Below, piece after piece: positions 27,524 through 53,048 of a stretch of 64,000 bases of DNA. The stretch spans positions 1 to 64,000 of the forward strand of contig JAAYIK010000014.1 in assembly GCA_012523465.1 (NCBI GenBank), read 5' to 3'. Origin of the DNA: Lysobacteraceae bacterium. GTDB taxonomy: Bacteria > Pseudomonadota > Gammaproteobacteria > Nitrococcales > AK92. The notes beneath the pieces were generated by a model. The model made no database searches. It was given only the letters and a program-made list of their open reading frames with translations, and had not been told where the DNA came from. Position numbers and translations under genes: made by a program. The number at the start of each line of letters is the position of its first letter. Within the stretch, counting starts at the first letter, position 1.

Positions 27524-28498
27524 TCAGCAGCGCTCGATGGGGAAGGCCATCACTTCGTCGATGTGGCTGGCGCCGACCGCCACCATCACCAGCCGGTCGA
27601 GCCCCAGGGCGACACCGGCGCAGGCCGGCAGGCCAGCGGCCAGTGCCGCCAGCAGGCGCTCGTCGACGCCGGACTCCGGCTGCCCGGCGGCCTGCCGGCG
27701 GGCACGCTCCCGTTCGAAGCGGCGGCGCTGCTCCGCGGGATCGGTGAGCTCGTGGTAACCGTTGGCGATTTCCATGCCGTCGATGAACAGCTCGAAGCGC
27801 TCAGCCACTTCCACCTCGCCGTCCATGCGCAACCGCGCCAGCGCCGCCTGCGAAGCCGGGAAGTCGCAGACGTAGCTGAACGTCCCCTGTCCCAGCCGGG
27901 GCGAAACCAGCTCGGAGAACAGCAAATCCAGCCAGCCATCGCGGTCATCGTCGGCCAGCGCCGGCAAGGGAATGCTCTGCGCCGCGGCACGGGCCTTGAG
28001 CTCCGCGGTCGCGCACTGGAATGGATCGATGGCGGCGAAGCGGCGGAACGCCTCGCGATAGCTCAGCACTTCCACCGGCCGCGGCCCGAGGATCACACTC
28101 ACCAGCTCGGTGACCTCCGCCATCAGGCGATGATGGTCGTATCCCAGCCGATACCATTCGAGCATGGTGAACTCGGGGTTGTGCCGCCGACCCCGCTCGT
28201 CGGGCCGGAAGACCCGGCAGATCTGGTAGATGCAACCGCTGCCGGCGGCCAGCAGCCGCTTCATAGCGAATTCGGGCGAGGTCTGCAGCCAGAGCCGACC
28301 GGAGGCGGGCGCGCCGGGGCCGGAATAGGGAACCGAGAAGCTGGCGAGGTTAGGATCGGCGGCCGCGGAGCCGATCAGCACCGGCGTCTCCACCTCGAGC
28401 ACGCCGCGCTCGGCAAAAAAGCGGCGGACGGAGGCCAGGATCTCCGCCCGCCGCCGCAGATTCTCCAGGCTGGCCGCCGGCCGCCAGAGCTGCGTCAT
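27524..28498 (-). CDS. epmA: EF-P--(R)-beta-lysine ligase
   Basis: EpmA (GenX/PoxA/YjeA) is a truncated lysyl-tRNA synthetase lacking the anticodon domain. It attaches (R)-beta-lysine to Lys34 of EF-P. The 324-residue product shows class II synthetase motifs: VLEVETPVLIGSAAADPNL, YQICRVFRPDERGRRHNPEFTMLEWYR (motif 2) and GVALGLDRLVMVAVG (motif 3). Its ATG shares one base with the efp stop (TAATG), so efp and epmA are coupled. Confidence 0.95.
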   Translation of the reverse strand: MTQLWRPAASLENLRRRAEILASVRRFFAERGVLEVETPVLIGSAAADPNLASFSVPYSGPGAPASGRLWLQTSPEFAMKRLLAAGSGCIYQICRVFRPDERGRRHNPEFTMLEWYRLGYDHHRLMAEVTELVSVILGPRPVEVLSYREAFRRFAAIDPFQCATAELKARAAAQSIPLPALADDDRDGWLDLLFSELVSPRLGQGTFSYVCDFPASQAALARLRMDGEVEVAERFELFIDGMEIANGYHELTDPAEQRRRFERERARRQAAGQPESGVDERLLAALAAGLPACAGVALGLDRLVMVAVGASHIDEVMAFPIERC

Positions 28499-29067
28499 TA
28501 CTCCTTGACGCGGGAGACGTATTCGCCGGTGCGGGTGTCGACCCGGATCACCTCGCCTTCCGGCACGAACAGCGGCACCCGCACCACAGCACCGGTCTCC
28601 AGCTTGGCCGGCTTGGTGCCACCGCTGCTGGTATCGCCACGCACGCCAGGGTCAGTCTCCACGATGCGCAGGTTGACGAAGTTGGGCGGCGTGACGCTGA
28701 GCGGCTGGCCGTTGTAGAGGACCACGGTGCACATGTCCTGTTCCTTAATCCAGGGCAGCGCCTCTTCCATCGCGGTCCGATCGGCCCCGATCTGCTCATA
28801 GGTGTTGGGATCCATGAAATACCACTGACTGCCGTCGTTGTAGAGATACTGCATCTCGACTTCGACGACGTCGGCGGCTTCCACCGTATCGCCCGACTTG
28901 AAGGTGCGGTCGATGACGCGTCCCGTCTTGAGGTTGCGGACTTTCACACGGTTGAAGGCCTGCCCCTTGCCGGGCTTGACGAACTCGTTCTCCACGATGG
29001 CGTACGGTTCGCCGTCCAGCATGATCTTGAGCCCAGCCTTGAATTCGTTGGTGCTGTAGGTCGCCAT
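28498..29067 (-). CDS. efp: Translation elongation factor P
   Basis: EF-P relieves ribosome stalling at polyproline. The 189-residue protein opens [20 protein letters not shown], and its modification loop [11 protein letters not shown] places Lys34 at the tip, as in the beta-lysylated group. Domains II and III follow. It is the promoter-proximal gene of efp-epmA and is divergent from epmB. Confidence 0.97.
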
Positions 29068-29177
29068 AGTGTCCTCGATACCATCCGCGGTGACTGCGCG
29101 AAAGCGCGAATCGTAACGGATTCTGCTTGCAGTTAGAATACGTGGTCCGTTTTTTCAATCCTTTGGAAGCATCGTCA

Positions 29178-30188
29178 ATGCCCGTCCAACTGCACGCCAC
29201 CTCATCCGCCAGGCCCCGCTGGCAACAGGAGCTGGCTGACGCCATCCGCGACCCAGCCGAGCTGCTGAGCCTGCTGGAGCTGGACCCTGCCCTGCTGCCG
29301 GCGGCGCAGGCGGCGGCGGCGCAGTTCCCGCTGCGGGTGCCGCGCGGCTTCGTGGCCCGCATGCGGCCGGGCGACCCGCACGACCCGCTGTTGCGGCAGG
29401 TGCTGCCGCTAGCCGACGAGCTGCGGCCGGCGCAGGACTATCTCGTCGATCCGGTCGGCGACCTCGAGGCCATGCGGGCCGGAGGCGTGCTGCACAAATA
29501 CCACGGCCGGGTGCTGCTGGTAATCACCGGCGCCTGCGCCATTCATTGCCGCTACTGCTTCCGCCGGCACTTTCCCTACGCCGAGGCCAACGCCGCCGCC
29601 GGCGGTTTCGCCGCCGCCCTCGACTATATCAGAGCGCGCCCGGACATCAGCGAAGTGATTCTGAGCGGGGGCGACCCGCTGGTTCTCAACGACCGCCGGC
29701 TGAGCGAGCTGGCGCGCCAGCTGGCGGCCATTCCCCACCTGCGCCGGCTGCGCATCCACAGCCGCCTGCCCATCGTGCTGCCCAGCCGCATCGACGCCGA
29801 CCTGCTGGACTGGCTGACCGGGACTCGCCTGCAGCCGGTGCTGGTGGTGCATGCCAATCACCCTCGCGAGCTCAGCGACGAGGTCGCCGCGGCCGCCGCG
29901 AGATTGCGCGAACGGGGCGTCACCCTGCTCAACCAGGCCGTGCTGCTGGCCGGCGTCAACGACGACGCCGAGGTCCTGGTCGAGCTATCCGAGCGCCTCT
30001 TCGCACTCGGCATCCTGCCCTATTATCTGCACGCTCTGGACCGGGTGCAGGGCGCCAGCCACTTCAACAGCGACCAGGCTCTGCGCTCCCTGCTGCCCAA
30101 GCTCAGAGCGCGGCTGCCAGGCTACCTGGTGCCGCGCGCGGTGCGCGAGGAGCCTGGCCGGGCCAGCAAGACCCCGCTGCCGTACTAG
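29178..30188 (+). CDS. epmB: EF-P-type lysine 2,3-aminomutase
   Basis: EpmB makes the (R)-beta-lysine used by EpmA. The 336-residue product from MPVQLHATSS has the radical-SAM motif at C120, C124 and C127 (GACAIHCRYCFRRHFPY) and the PLP-enzyme region near EVILSGGDPLVLNDRRL. The C-terminus is short, as in EpmB and unlike catabolic aminomutases. It faces away from efp across a 110-nt region. Together the three genes encode a full EF-P modification system except the optional hydroxylase EpmC. Confidence 0.95.
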   Translation: MPVQLHATSSARPRWQQELADAIRDPAELLSLLELDPALLPAAQAAAAQFPLRVPRGFVARMRPGDPHDPLLRQVLPLADELRPAQDYLVDPVGDLEAMRAGGVLHKYHGRVLLVITGACAIHCRYCFRRHFPYAEANAAAGGFAAALDYIRARPDISEVILSGGDPLVLNDRRLSELARQLAAIPHLRRLRIHSRLPIVLPSRIDADLLDWLTGTRLQPVLVVHANHPRELSDEVAAAAARLRERGVTLLNQAVLLAGVNDDAEVLVELSERLFALGILPYYLHALDRVQGASHFNSDQALRSLLPKLRARLPGYLVPRAVREEPGRASKTPLPY

Positions 30189-30341: not shown

Positions 30342-32075
30342 ATGGACGACTCCCCGCGCCTGCAACTGGATCCACCGCCACGCCACAAACCTGATGCCGC
30401 CAGCTTCGACACCCGCCGCCGTGCCCTGCGGCGTTGGCTGGCGGAGCTTCCGGTCGCCGACCCGACCACGAGCGGCCGGCTGCTGCGCGACGCCTTGGTC
30501 GAGATCAACCGCCTGCAGCTTTCCCCGAGCCAGCGCCTGCGCACGCTGGAGACGCTGCGGGGACCGCTCGCCGGCATCGTCTCGGCCCAGGCACGCAACG
30601 TCTATGGAACGGACTTTCCGCTACCGGAGCGCAATCAGGTGCACGCCCGGCAAGTCGAGCAGCTGCTGCTCGAGCTGGCGGCCGGCTACTACAGCCTGAT
30701 CGACGAGCGCTGGCGCAGCAGCCGGAAGCGCCGCGCCCTGCCGCTCCAGCGCTCCCTCCACGCCCTGAATCGCCTGCTGTTCCATTACGTCTGCCTGTAC
30801 CAGCCGCCGCCACCGGGCCTGTGGGCCCATCTGCATCGCCTCTACGCCACGGCCGAGTCGCGCGGCGTCGCCGAGCTGTCACTGCCCGATCCGCTCGCCT
30901 GGCGCCGGCGCCGCAGCTGCGCCGATGTCTACAAGCACTGTCTGCTGCTGGCAGCGGCCAATCCTTCCCGCATGCGGCCGCAGGTCTTGACGCAAGCCGA
31001 CGCCCTGCTCGAGCGCTGGGCTGGCCTGGCCCGACTGCAGCACGCGGAGGCAGCGTCGCACGAGGCCTTCTTCGTTGCCCCGGACCGCGACGCCCCGCCG
31101 TTGCGTCCCAGCCGCCTCGGTGTCACCGGCAGCAGCCTCTACCGACTGGATACCGCGCCCGTGGTGGAGGCGGCACGGCGCCAGCTGCAGCCGCCGCCGC
31201 GCTGGCAATTCTGGCACCGGAGCAAGCAGACGCCGGCGAGCAGACAGCTGATTGAGGACTTGCTGGAGACGCTCGATCTACCGCCACTGCGGCAGTCGGT
31301 GCGGCTGCCGGCCCAGGCCACGATGCAAGTTTACATGGGCCTCGCCCAGGTCCATCGCGGGCTGGTCCACTACCTCGGCCTAAGCGGCCTGGACCCCAAT
31401 CAGCCACGCGCCCGCTTCACCAGCCGCGACGTACCTCATGAAGGGCATCAGGAGCAGCCGGACGACATCTGGGAACTGATCTATCCGACCGAGCTGCTGC
31501 ACCGGCTGGCCAAAGCCGACCGACAGCCCCGCCCTGCGGCCGAACCACCACCCTTCGATACCCTGCAAAGCCAGGAGTGGAGCGTGATCAACACCAGTGC
31601 CGGCGGCTATTGCCTGCACGCCAGGGCCGCTTGCGGCTACCGGGTGCGGGTCGGCGAGCTGCTGCTGCTGCGGGAGAGAAACAAGCCGCGGACGCCCTGG
31701 CAGCTGGCTGTGGTGCGCTGGATGCAGCAGCGGCCCGACGGCCTGCAGATCGGCATTCAAAGGCTAGGAGCGATGCCGCTGCCAGCGCTGCTCAAGCTGA
31801 CCCACTCCGGAGGCGAGCAGGACACCCTGCTCCGCGCCCTGCTGCTGCCGGCCGACCCGGTCAGCCGCCGCCCTAGCACGCTGCTGGTCCAGCCGCATGC
31901 GCTCAGAACCAAGCAGTGCGTCGTGCTGCGTGGCGCTACCGGCGAACGTGAGATCGTGCTTGCGGATCTGCTAGAGTCCGGCCGGGGGTTCATGTGGTTC
32001 GAATACCAGACGCTGCAATCGGCCGCCATGACTCCGACCGAGGAACGCGAACTTTCCATGATCCCCGGCGGTTAA
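30342..32075 (+). CDS. PilZ-domain (probable c-di-GMP receptor) protein upstream of fimX
   Basis: A 577-residue cytosolic protein without signal or membrane segments. Residues 1 to about 400 are helical and Arg/Leu-rich with no recognised domain. The C-terminal part has the PilZ pattern: WSVINTSAGGYCLHA (N-x-S-x-x-G, about residues 417-422), then VGELLLLRERNKP and WQLAVVRWMQQRPDGLQIGIQRLG, the usual PilZ strand pair. A clear RxxxR before it is not seen; only RQPR about 20 residues upstream. It lies 30 nt before fimX on the same strand. In Pseudomonas a PilZ protein linked to type IV pilus assembly (FimW) is, as I recall, encoded beside fimX; this may be its counterpart. Confidence 0.78.
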   Translation: MDDSPRLQLDPPPRHKPDAASFDTRRRALRRWLAELPVADPTTSGRLLRDALVEINRLQLSPSQRLRTLETLRGPLAGIVSAQARNVYGTDFPLPERNQVHARQVEQLLLELAAGYYSLIDERWRSSRKRRALPLQRSLHALNRLLFHYVCLYQPPPPGLWAHLHRLYATAESRGVAELSLPDPLAWRRRRSCADVYKHCLLLAAANPSRMRPQVLTQADALLERWAGLARLQHAEAASHEAFFVAPDRDAPPLRPSRLGVTGSSLYRLDTAPVVEAARRQLQPPPRWQFWHRSKQTPASRQLIEDLLETLDLPPLRQSVRLPAQATMQVYMGLAQVHRGLVHYLGLSGLDPNQPRARFTSRDVPHEGHQEQPDDIWELIYPTELLHRLAKADRQPRPAAEPPPFDTLQSQEWSVINTSAGGYCLHARAACGYRVRVGELLLLRERNKPRTPWQLAVVRWMQQRPDGLQIGIQRLGAMPLPALLKLTHSGGEQDTLLRALLLPADPVSRRPSTLLVQPHALRTKQCVVLRGATGEREIVLADLLESGRGFMWFEYQTLQSAAMTPTEERELSMIPGG

Positions 32076-32105
32076 ACAGGAATGACTTGAGGTGAGGTAC
32101 TGTCC

Positions 32106-34187
32106 ATGCCGGTCCAGGACGAAGCGCTGAGGCTGTTGGTCGCCGAGCCTTCCTTGAATGATGCCGAAACCTTCATCAGCGTGCTGCGCAACGCCGGCTT
32201 CGCGGTCCGTCCGTCGCGGGTGGAAACCGAGGACGAGCTGCGGGAAGCGCTCGATCAGAAAACCTACGACCTTTTCCTCTGCGCTACCGCTCTGCCCGAC
32301 TTGCCGCTGTCCCTCGCCAACCGTCTGGTTCAGCAGTCCGGCAAGGACATCCCCGTGATCGGGCTGCTGCCGAGCGAAGACCCCCAGGGCCGGCTCAACG
32401 CACTGGCCGCTGGCGCCGCCGATGCAGTCAGCCGGGACGATTTACGCCATCTGCAGCTGGTGGTGGAGCGGGAGATCCGCCATCTGCACGACCGCCGCCG
32501 GCTGCGCCGGCTGGAGGTAGCGTTGCGGGAAGTGGAGAAGCGCTGCCATGCCCTGCTCGACAACTCCCGCGATGCCATCGCCTATGTGCATGACGGCATG
32601 CACATCTACGCCAACCGGGCCTATCTGGAAAAATTCGGCTACGCCAGCATGGAAGACATGGAAGGCATGCCGCTGCTGGACATGGTGGCGCCCGCCGACC
32701 AGGCCCGCCTCAAGGAGTTCCTGCGCGCCTACCAGCGCTCGCCCGACGACGAAGCCGAGCTGGAACTCAGCATGGTCACCGAGCAGGGCGAGCCCCTACA
32801 GGTGGTGATGAGCTTCTCGCCCGCCTCCATCGACGGCGAAGCCTGCACCCAGATCCTGATCCGCGACAGGTCCGCCGCTGCCGACATTACCCTGCAGTTC
32901 GACGTCCTCAGCAAGCTGGATCTGCTCACCGGGCTGTACAACCGTCAGCACTTCATGGAAGAGCTGCAGAACGCGGTCGACAAGGCGGTCGACGGCGAGG
33001 GTGGCGGCGGGCTGCTCTACATCCTGCTCGACAATGTCGACATGATCCGGAAGACGCTGGGCATCAGCGCCCTGGATGCGCTCATGGCCGACCTCGGCCA
33101 GCTCATCCAGGGCGAGGTCGGCGACGGCGGCCTGGCGGCCCGCTTCAGCGACGACACCTTCGTCATCCTACTGCCCAAGCAAAGCGTGCACGACGCCATC
33201 GCCCTGGGCGAGGCACTGCTGCGGGTGATCGAGAATCATATCTGCACCATCGACGGGCGCACCATCACCACCACCTGCAGCGTCGGCATCACGATGGTTG
33301 GCGAGAGCGTCGGCACCGCGCAGTCAGCGGTCAACGACGCCATCAAGGCGGCTGAGCAGGCCCGCGGCGAGGGCGGCAACCGGGTGCACCTGCATTCGCC
33401 GGAAGAAGGCACCGGCACAGCGAGCGCCGCCGACTGGCGTCAGCGCATCGAGCACGCCCTGGAAGAAGGCCGACTGTACCTGGTTTACCAGCCGGTGGCC
33501 AGCTTGCGCGGCGACCCCACTGAGCGCTACGAGGTCCGGCTGCGGATGATGTCGGAGGACGGCGAGACCGTCATGCCGCTGGATTTCCTCCCCCAGGCCG
33601 AGGAGCTGGGGATGATGCCGCAGATCGACCGCTGGGTCCTACGAACCGCCCTGCAGGCCCTGCACGAGCGGCGCAGCCGCGGCTTCGATACCCGCCTGTT
33701 CGTCAAGCTCGCCGGCTCCACCCTGGACGATGCCAGCTTCGCCGACTTCGTCGCCGAGCAGTTGAACGCCCTGGGCCTGGAAGGCAGTTGGCTGGGCTTC
33801 CAGATCAACGAGCCCATCGCCGTCACCCACCTCACCCAGGCCAAGCAGTTCCACCGCCGGATGCGCCAGCTGGGGGTGGCGCTCTGCCTGGATCACTTCG
33901 GCAGCGGCCTCAATCCCTTCCAGTTGGTCAAGCACCTGCCAGCCGAATTCCTCAAGATCGACCGCACCCTGAGCCAGGATCTGCTCGGCAACGAGGAAAA
34001 CCGCGAGGCGGTCAAGCAAATCATCGACAACGCTCACGCCATCCAGAAGCAGGTCATCGTCGGCTACTTGGAAGATGCTTCCAGCCTGGCCGTGCTCTGG
34101 CAGCTGCAGGCCGACTTCGTCCAGGGCAATTTCCTGTCCTACCCGGAGCGGACCATGAGCTACGACTTCGCCGGCATGGCGATGTAG
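32106..34187 (+). CDS. fimX: FimX-like degenerate REC-PAS-GGDEF-EAL c-di-GMP scaffold
   Basis: A 693-residue protein, nearly the length of Pseudomonas FimX, which binds c-di-GMP and promotes type IV pilus assembly. Domains in order: receiver (about 9-125) with Ala at the usual phospho-Asp position (DLFLCATALPD); PAS (about 140-255); GGDEF (about 270-430) with SDDTF in place of GGDEF; EAL (about 440-690) with EVR for EAL, DHFGSG for DDFGTG and a Lys where NVS is expected (FVKLAGS). Metal ligands are thus lost, so hydrolysis and synthesis are both unlikely while ligand binding may persist. It follows the PilZ gene in a likely operon and ends at a strong terminator. Confidence 0.9.
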   Translation: MPVQDEALRLLVAEPSLNDAETFISVLRNAGFAVRPSRVETEDELREALDQKTYDLFLCATALPDLPLSLANRLVQQSGKDIPVIGLLPSEDPQGRLNALAAGAADAVSRDDLRHLQLVVEREIRHLHDRRRLRRLEVALREVEKRCHALLDNSRDAIAYVHDGMHIYANRAYLEKFGYASMEDMEGMPLLDMVAPADQARLKEFLRAYQRSPDDEAELELSMVTEQGEPLQVVMSFSPASIDGEACTQILIRDRSAAADITLQFDVLSKLDLLTGLYNRQHFMEELQNAVDKAVDGEGGGGLLYILLDNVDMIRKTLGISALDALMADLGQLIQGEVGDGGLAARFSDDTFVILLPKQSVHDAIALGEALLRVIENHICTIDGRTITTTCSVGITMVGESVGTAQSAVNDAIKAAEQARGEGGNRVHLHSPEEGTGTASAADWRQRIEHALEEGRLYLVYQPVASLRGDPTERYEVRLRMMSEDGETVMPLDFLPQAEELGMMPQIDRWVLRTALQALHERRSRGFDTRLFVKLAGSTLDDASFADFVAEQLNALGLEGSWLGFQINEPIAVTHLTQAKQFHRRMRQLGVALCLDHFGSGLNPFQLVKHLPAEFLKIDRTLSQDLLGNEENREAVKQIIDNAHAIQKQVIVGYLEDASSLAVLWQLQADFVQGNFLSYPERTMSYDFAGMAM

Positions 34188-35283: not shown

Positions 35284-37536
<2,253 letters not shown>

Positions 37537-50852: not shown

Positions 50853-53048
50853 TCACGGCAGCCATTCCGGCCGATGCAGGGCGTGCCCCTGCGCGTAATC
50901 CACCCCCAGCCGGCGCAGGGCGACCAGGGTGGCCTCGTCCTCGACGAACTCGGCGATGGTGCGTATCCCCATGATGTGCCCCACCTGGTTGATGGCCTCG
51001 ACCATGGAATGGTCGATGGGATCGCTGCTCATGTGCTTGACGAACAGGCCGTCGATCTTGAGGTAGTCCACCGGCAGGGTGCGCAGATAGGCGAACGAGG
51101 ACAGCCCGGAGCCGAAATCGTCGAGCGCGAAGGCGCAACCGGCCTCATGGAGGGCATCGATGAAGCGCCGGGCCCGCTCCAGGTTGGCGATAACAGCAGT
51201 TTCGGTGATCTCGAAGCAAATGCGGCGGGGATCGATGGCAGCCACGGCCAGCTGCTGTTGCACGTAATCGAGGAAGTGTTCGTCGTTGAGCGACTGCCCC
51301 GAGAGGTTGATGTTGAAGCGGCGGATGGCCTCCAGCGCCGGCATGCCGGCCCGGATGCGCTCGAAGACCGTGTGCACCACCCAGCGGTCGATGTGCGGCA
51401 TCATGTTGAAGCGCTCTGCCGCCGGCAGAAAGCGCCCCGGCAAGACCAGCGTCCCATCCGGCTCCTCTAGCCCCAGCAGCACCTCCGCCATCTCCTCTCC
51501 CGCCTCGTGCAGCGGGACGATGCGCTGGTAGCGGAGCCGGAACGCATCCTGGTCCAGCGCGCGCTGGATGCGCTGGGTCCAGCGTGCTTCGCCGTGGCGG
51601 ACAGCCAGTCTCTCGTCCCGCGGCGAGGCGACGTGCACTCGTCCGCGTCCCTGCTCCTTGGCGATGAGGCAGCTGCTCTCGGCGGCCGCCAGCGCCGCCG
51701 GGGTGCTGTCAGCGTCCAGCGGCACCAGCCCGATGGAGGCCGATACCTTGAAGGTGTGGCTTTCCCAATGGAAGCGGAAATCGCCGAAGGCGCCGCAAAT
51801 GTCCTCCGCCAACCGTTGCGCGCTCGCCAGGTCGCAGTCCATTAAGAGGATGCCGAACTCGTCGGCCCCCAGCCTGGCGGCGCAGTCGGTCTCGCGCACA
51901 TGGCGCTGCAGCAGCCGGGCAACCTGCTGCAGCAGGGCATCACCGGCCTGGTGCCCGCAAGCCGCGTTCACCAGCTTGAACTGGTCCAGATCGAGAAAGC
52001 ACAGCGCATGCTGGCGCGGTGACTCGCGCAGCTCTTCCAGCAGCTGCTGCAACCTGCCTTCGAAGGCTGCGCGGTTGCTCAGGCCGGTCAGCGCATCGTG
52101 GCTGGCCTGATAGGAGACCGCCCGAGCCATGCCGCGCAGCTCGGTGACGTCGCGCAACACCACCACGACCCCACGCTCGCTGCGGCCGGCGCCGACGATG
52201 GGTGCCACCGAGACTTCCGCCGCCGCCTCCTGCTTGCCGCCGCCCTCACTGTGCAAGGCCAGCTGCCCCAGCACCACCGGCCCGCCCCGGCTGCGGCTCA
52301 ACCGCACCAGATCCGGGGGCACCGCATCCGTACTCTCATCCCGCAGCTGCAGCACCTGCTGCAGCGGCCGGCCGCGCGCCTCCTGCCGGCTCCAGCCGGT
52401 CAGCCGCTCGGCGGCCGGGTTGAGCGAGATGACGCGGCCGCCGGCATCAGCCACAATCACGCCGTCACCGATGGAACGCAACGTCACCTCGGCCAGTTCC
52501 TGCTCCTCGTTCAGCCGGTGCGCCAGCTCCTCGCGCTCGAAGCTCAACACCAGGGCGCGGCGAATCAGCTGCACGGCGTTGCGGGAGGAGTCGAGTATGA
52601 CTAGGAAGCCGAACAGCGGGAGACTGCCGAAGCCCAGGGCGCAGACCAGGAAGACCGCGAAGGCCAGATCCAGGGGATGGCCGGTGTAGCCGGCCATGCC
52701 GAGCACGGCAGCCCAGCTGATCGCCTGCAGCGCGACCAGGCCGCTGCCGAGCGCAGCCCAGCGGCGATACTGCCGCTCCGTCGGCTGTGCCCGCTCGAAC
52801 CAGCGCGCCGCCAAATGACGGGCGACGGCGATACCGCTGGAGAGGAAGAACCAGGCCAGTAGCCAGTCGGCCGGCAGCCGGGCATAGAAATTCAGGAACA
52901 CCAGCACCGCATAGATGATGCTGGTGCGGTAGGCGTACTTGGTGACCGCGTAAAGGTTGCGGAGCTGCTCGAACCGCAGCCGGAATCTTTGTCTTCTGCC
53001 GCTGCCGGTCGTCCCCTGCCAGGCAGGCGCGACGCTGCGCTTCGTCAT
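50853..53048 (-). CDS. Membrane PAS-GGDEF-EAL protein (c-di-GMP turnover)
   Basis: A 731-residue inner-membrane signalling protein. Four hydrophobic helices (about 45-62, 64-82, 100-120, 128-152) are followed by a coiled region, PAS (about 185-305), GGDEF (about 310-470) and EAL (about 485-731). The GGDEF motif is GADEF (394-398), possibly still active. The EAL motif is EVLLGL (522-527): Ala to Val, and the Arg that normally touches c-di-GMP replaced by Gly. Other EAL residues are kept: EITETAV, DDFGSG (643-648), YLKIDG and EFVEDE. Weak or regulated phosphodiesterase activity is the best guess. It belongs to no operon. Confidence 0.9.
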   Translation of the reverse strand: MTKRSVAPAWQGTTGSGRRQRFRLRFEQLRNLYAVTKYAYRTSIIYAVLVFLNFYARLPADWLLAWFFLSSGIAVARHLAARWFERAQPTERQYRRWAALGSGLVALQAISWAAVLGMAGYTGHPLDLAFAVFLVCALGFGSLPLFGFLVILDSSRNAVQLIRRALVLSFEREELAHRLNEEQELAEVTLRSIGDGVIVADAGGRVISLNPAAERLTGWSRQEARGRPLQQVLQLRDESTDAVPPDLVRLSRSRGGPVVLGQLALHSEGGGKQEAAAEVSVAPIVGAGRSERGVVVVLRDVTELRGMARAVSYQASHDALTGLSNRAAFEGRLQQLLEELRESPRQHALCFLDLDQFKLVNAACGHQAGDALLQQVARLLQRHVRETDCAARLGADEFGILLMDCDLASAQRLAEDICGAFGDFRFHWESHTFKVSASIGLVPLDADSTPAALAAAESSCLIAKEQGRGRVHVASPRDERLAVRHGEARWTQRIQRALDQDAFRLRYQRIVPLHEAGEEMAEVLLGLEEPDGTLVLPGRFLPAAERFNMMPHIDRWVVHTVFERIRAGMPALEAIRRFNINLSGQSLNDEHFLDYVQQQLAVAAIDPRRICFEITETAVIANLERARRFIDALHEAGCAFALDDFGSGLSSFAYLRTLPVDYLKIDGLFVKHMSSDPIDHSMVEAINQVGHIMGIRTIAEFVEDEATLVALRRLGVDYAQGHALHRPEWLP

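Follow-up and report, generated by a model that had tools for sequence, protein, structure and literature searches.

The 64,000-nucleotide stretch analysed here (the window; positions 1 to 64,000 of contig JAAYIK010000014.1, Lysobacteraceae bacterium, assembly GCA_012523465.1) carries two codirectional open reading frames (ORFs), separated by 30 bp, which are best explained as a whole as an ortholog pair of the Pseudomonas genes fimW and fimX, acting in the control of type IV pili by cyclic di-GMP (c-di-GMP); we put the probability of this reading at roughly 0.8. Both ORFs lie where an initial annotation, made from the sequence alone, had placed them: fimW at 30342..32075 (+, 577 aa) and fimX at 32106..34187 (+, 693 aa). 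That annotation took the two products for a FimX-type receptor and a PilZ-domain partner serving type IV pili, which is the right reading and had already been described as FimW-FimX in P. aeruginosa (PMC11656802, PMC12564702, PMC10212136). The pair adds a new lineage to those with a fimW-fimX locus, an arrangement that is itself known from P. aeruginosa. Homology, linkage, domain anatomy, the loss of enzymatic motifs in FimX and the retention of both PilZ ligand motifs in FimW are established in this analysis, as is the presence in the same genome of PilZ and of the published target, PilB. The anatomy draws on prediction and alignment, and the proposed mechanism is carried over by homology.

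FimX and its degenerate motifs

Judged by its sequence, the product of 32106..34187 is a FimX ortholog. As had been proposed, its Pfam architecture is REC, PAS, GGDEF and EAL, with the REC domain scoring 20.2 bits against a cut-off of 30.2, as would be expected of a receiver that is degenerate. The top match in the PDB is 4j40 (GGDEF-EAL; E 8e-84, residues 268-689), followed by 7lkq (FimX; 6.4e-64), with 3hv8 and 3hv9 in fourth and fifth place. The match table labels both simply 'FimX'; 4j40 is FimX of P. aeruginosa and 7lkq that of X. citri. Identity to ten orthologs in related genomes is 47-57%. The degenerate motifs named by the initial annotation are all present: SDDTF in the GGDEF domain (348-352), EVR (476-478) and LDHFG (595-599) in the EAL domain. 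The receiver likewise lacks an Asp where the phospho-acceptor would be expected (YDLFLCATALPDLP, starting at residue 54), as judged from the motif.

How ordinary these losses are can be judged from the relatives. A scan of genome contigs for fimW, with a pattern that included N-x-S-x-G-G, found 284 relatives, of which the best 80 were kept; residue conservation was counted over 78 sequences, namely the window and 77 of the 80 loci (L077, L078 and L121 were dropped for want of a FimX ORF of at least 300 aa). At the third place of the EAL motif 55 of the 78 have Phe and 8 have Arg, and the LDHF position is variable, with Gln replacing His in 69. Degenerate REC, GGDEF and EAL motifs recur in relatives, and within this degenerate family the FimX of the window is therefore nothing unusual.

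It could be argued that FimX is still a phosphodiesterase, if a weak one, which lowers c-di-GMP locally while FimW reads the local pool. Weak hydrolysis by P. aeruginosa FimX has been reported (PMC11656802), and E476, E569, K617, D619 and Q673 are retained in the window protein. However, in the PDB alignment the window FimX has LDHFGSG against LDDF in the 5xgb row and IVGYLED against IAEFVET, Lys534 stands where 62 of the 78 sequences have Asn, and the EAL domain of FimX is termed non-catalytic (PMC12564702, PMC8389850). We regard residual phosphodiesterase action as highly unlikely, and favour FimX as a receptor of c-di-GMP.

FimW and its split PilZ domain

The product of 30342..32075 is most probably FimW, a c-di-GMP effector whose N-terminal domain is helical and whose PilZ domain is split; its gene directly adjoins fimX. 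The PilZ domain is not apparent from sequence searches: neither Pfam nor NCBIfam reports one in the full-length protein, and phmmer and profile searches of PDB sequences gave nothing meaningful. The AlphaFold model (24 homologs; mean pLDDT, the per-residue confidence score, 83.0; pTM, the predicted template-modelling score, 0.82) consists of a helical N-terminal part followed by a barrel. In VIA-align residues 314-476, covering this barrel, align with the PilZ domain of PA0012 (8u0i) with Z 11.2, rmsd 2.5 and 83 of 85 residues aligned, and with those of VCA0042, BcsA, YcgR and Alg44 with Z 9-10. The domain (31281..31772, +, residues 314-477) contains both ligand motifs, RxxxR at 317-321 and NxSxGG at 417-422. 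Between its strands 1 and 2 lies an insertion (31338..31571, +, approximately residues 333-410), in which a short helix (334-345) is followed by a mostly low-confidence stretch. The starts of the two motifs are consequently 100 residues apart, compared with 27-32 in L001, L003 and L006, three short PilZ proteins that this genome also encodes. Once the insertion is excised, FimW scores 19.5 instead of 14.0 bits against Pfam PilZ, and a relative (L010) 24.8 instead of 16.8 bits. The separation of RxxxR from NxSxGG by an insertion of about 70 residues would explain why Pfam does not recognise the domain in full-length FimW.

The claim of a 577-residue PilZ-domain partner is accordingly supported by the model, the structural alignment and the score without the insertion, but not by any report on the full-length sequence, nor is the domain a short C-terminal tail. 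Its proposed start after an N-terminal region of some 400 residues does not hold: the domain begins near residue 314, and RxxxR lies about 95 residues ahead of NxSxGG. A beta region downstream (31827..32012, +, residues 496-557), delimited from the secondary structure of the model, has no assignment.

The ligand motifs are conserved. Arg317 and Arg321, which were not part of the scan selection, are present in 78/78 sequences. In an unselected alignment of 24 FimW-family proteins, comprising FimX-linked genes and paralogs (A1; two others held nine proteins, A2, and 53 after an 80% identity filter, A4), Arg321 and Gly422 are invariant and Arg317, Asn417 and Ser419 are conserved in at least 90%. 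Within the insertion Trp377 is invariant (78/78) and Asp375 nearly so (76/78), forming a D-x-W motif; a wider motif, D[VIL][WYF]..[IVL][YFH], matched just 7 of the 78 and was dropped in favour of the column-wise D-x-W. Modelling, structural alignment and the score rise together indicate that FimW carries a PilZ domain with ligand motifs, and binding of c-di-GMP is predicted.

The N-terminal domain (30375..31166, +, approximately residues 12-275) is predicted to be helical and has no convincing relative of known structure. Residues 12-312, modelled alone from 53 sequences, reach a mean pLDDT of 92.9. The best structural matches are designed helical repeats (Z 10.9), and Foldseek returned no match with E below 0.001. 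Rows of 14-3-3 proteins align with Z 9.0-9.6, rmsd 4.2-6.5 and 6-12% identity. According to the tool, helical-bundle matches under about Z 13 reflect a common arrangement; a 14-3-3-like fold is not claimed, as its scores are at this background and designed repeats score higher. A literature search for 14-3-3 together with c-di-GMP and PilZ listed one plant-microbiome review. The structure prediction suggested by the initial annotation thus leaves its N-terminal region without a recognised relative, but makes that region shorter and turns it into a confidently predicted helical domain.

Gene order and linkage

A fimX homolog follows fimW in all 80 kept loci, including those of Pseudomonas and Marinobacter. 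A full FimX ORF is present in 77, the other three lying near contig ends, and the median gap between the genes is 139 bp. In most loci the common neighbourhood is epmA-efp-epmB-fimW-fimX...parC. The window has the same genes: those for an EF-P lysine aminomutase-like protein (epmB, 29127..30188, +, homolog in 73/80 loci) immediately upstream, elongation factor P (efp, 28498..29067, -, 71/80) and a lysyl-tRNA synthetase-like protein (epmA, 27524..28498, -, 71/80) beyond it, and topoisomerase IV subunit A (parC, 35284..37536, -, 65/80) downstream. We presume these four gene names from the type of sequence, and the counts are limited by contig ends and by the 6-kb flank. In the papers searched, none was found that links FimX to elongation factor P and parC, and none that mentions it together with PA4958, the locus tag of FimW. 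The arrangement extends well beyond Pseudomonas, in one conserved neighbourhood, to Ectothiorhodospiraceae and Nitrococcus relatives, Marinobacter, Hahella and Oleiphilus.

Such a neighbourhood raises the question of whether fimW and fimX share anything other than descent on a common chromosome segment, without functional partnership. The housekeeping neighbours efp, epmA, epmB and parC are nearly as conserved as fimW-fimX, and according to PMC11656802 no FimW-FimX interaction has been published. In three relatives (G006, G012, G022; loci L164, L163, L162) fimX comes straight after epmB, and the stretch gives no match to the FimW profile; FimX persists while fimW is absent from its conserved slot, and the pair is therefore not obligate. 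On the other hand, fimW and fimX remain adjacent in six Pseudomonas loci that have no efp or epm genes within 6-kb flanks.

The distribution among 59 related genomes (thresholds E <= 1e-120 for FimX, 1e-20 for PilZ and 0.001 for FimW) also bears on this question. FimW-family matches occur in 25 of them, 24 of which have FimX, and four genomes have FimX without a FimW-family match. The sole genome with a FimW-family match and no strong FimX match is G040, whose contig ends just inside fimX, which argues against mere shared ancestry. At the level of loci, 21 of 30 FimW-family loci have a fimX match in the 1.5-kb flank, two of these 21 matches being partial at a contig end, and the rest are paralogs or contig ends; in G054 and G055 the FimW-family matches lie away from the place of fimX, so that paralogs are among the matches. 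On this evidence we consider shared ancestry as the whole explanation unlikely, though worth weighing, and retain the functional ortholog pair. A physical complex, as the term 'receptor/scaffold pair' had implied, is nevertheless unproven: according to PMC11656802, evidence that FimW interacts functionally with either FimX or PilB has yet to be obtained.

Several points weigh against identifying the pair as a pilus-regulating fimW-fimX locus. No locus titled P. aeruginosa is among the best 80 of the 284 relatives, and the tie to FimW of that species runs via other Pseudomonas loci with the same gene order (L079, L083-L085, L087, L098). Freed of its insertion, the window FimW still scores below the Pfam PilZ cut-off (19.5 against 22.5 bits), and Asn417, Ser419, Gly421 and Gly422 are found in 78/78 sequences by construction, since these residues were in the scan pattern. 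In one study a fimW mutant of PA14 twitched like the wild type, and the role of FimW may be minor or conditional.

Pilus genes elsewhere in the genome

The initial annotation had remarked that no pil gene is nearby. Indeed, a Pfam scan of 30 further ORFs, not all of those in the window, revealed no pilus gene (20 of the 30 had a match), but type IV pilus genes are encoded elsewhere in the genome. A pilB-pilC-pilD cluster lies on contig 29, two tandem T2SSE-family ATPases, putatively PilT and PilU, on contig 19, and a further T2SSE-family ATPase on contig 34; none of the four ATPases is on the contig of the window. The PilZ protein of this genome (L002, on contig 8) matches X. citri PilZ (3cnr, 1.5e-43). 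It is usual for a fimW-fimX locus to lie away from pil genes; in most relatives it has the same housekeeping neighbours.

One might still suppose that the pair serves another machine, such as type II secretion or a polar complex unrelated to pili, and that pilus control is borrowed by analogy. The separation from the pil genes and the additional ATPase on contig 34 would fit this. FimX, however, is distributed like PilZ: among the 59 genomes FimX is found in 28 and PilZ in 29, with both in 26, FimX only in 2 and PilZ only in 3, whereas 58 of them have a match to a PilB/GspE-type ATPase of one sort or another. A role in another machine is barely probable, and control of type IV pili is preferred.

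The genome holds further proteins of both kinds. A second FimX-like gene (L053:9969-12083, -, contig 29) lies directly upstream of pilB-pilC-pilD (pilB at L053:8100-9815). Its product has REC, a very degenerate GGDEF and EAL, its leading PDB matches are all FimX (4j40, 2.9e-43), and over 415 residues it shares 31% identity with the window FimX. It has matches in 11 of the 59 genomes, its own included; pilB directly adjoins it in five, shares its contig at a distance of about 8 kb in four and lies on another contig in two. A FimW-family paralog (L051:4858-6645, +, contig 2) stands without FimX beside tatC, as it does in five genomes (L051, L034, L035, L036/L067, L068); the other four are 43-47% identical to that of L051, and this tatC-linked paralog retains RxxxR and an NxSxGG-type motif. 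The window itself encodes a further PAS-GGDEF-EAL protein (50853-53048, -) with strong GGDEF and EAL scores.

Proposed mechanism

In P. aeruginosa FimX licenses PilB (PMC5595344), and in X. citri PilB, PilZ and FimX form a complex (PMC8389850). FimW carries a PilZ domain (PMC12564702); as c-di-GMP rises it dimerises and is recruited to the poles (PMC10212136). Further literature was drawn on (PMC6581867, PMC11784459, PMC12288467). By analogy with the Pseudomonas and Xanthomonas work, a rise in c-di-GMP, for example on surface contact, would lead FimX to bind the ligand through its non-catalytic EAL domain, and ligand-bound FimX would license PilB, the ATPase for pilus extension, either through PilZ as a bridge (as in X. 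citri) or directly (as in P. aeruginosa). FimW, for its part, would bind c-di-GMP through the split PilZ domain, be recruited to the pole and promote pilus assembly.

The mode of action of FimW is described as unknown in the literature (PMC11656802), and the concrete domain map, which also offers an explanation for the missed PilZ annotation, bears on that question. Two testable handles on how FimW works are the insertion with its D-x-W motif and the N-terminal domain in isolation. As a hypothesis, ligand held between RxxxR and NxSxGG could reposition the insertion and its D-x-W relative to the helical N-terminal domain, making FimW a ligand-gated polar adaptor. A doubtful extension, to which we give a small chance, is that the D-x-W segment, once moved by c-di-GMP, docks either on the helical N-terminal domain or on some protein of the pilus, and that in this lineage the adaptor operates together with two FimX-type receptors, one encoded with FimW and one beside pilB. 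If this were true, pilus extension would integrate two c-di-GMP inputs.

Comparison with known systems

The window FimX has the same REC-PAS-GGDEF-EAL order and degenerate motifs as FimX of P. aeruginosa and X. citri, and FimX chains head its PDB matches. The motifs differ in detail, being SDDTF and EVR in the window and GDSIF and EVL in P. aeruginosa (PMC11656802, PMC5595344). FimW of P. aeruginosa is likewise a PilZ protein encoded together with FimX (PMC11656802, PMC12564702), and the Pseudomonas homologs in the scan, to which the window FimW is 30-32% identical, keep the same gene order. PilZ of X. citri (3cnr) belongs to the same PilZ superfamily as FimW, but it is short, lacks the N-terminal domain of FimW and corresponds to a separate gene in this genome. 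The barrels of YcgR, PA0012, BcsA and Alg44 align with FimW residues 314-477 or thereabouts (Z 9-11), whereas FimW differs from all of these in the long insertion between strands 1 and 2 and in its other N-terminal domain.

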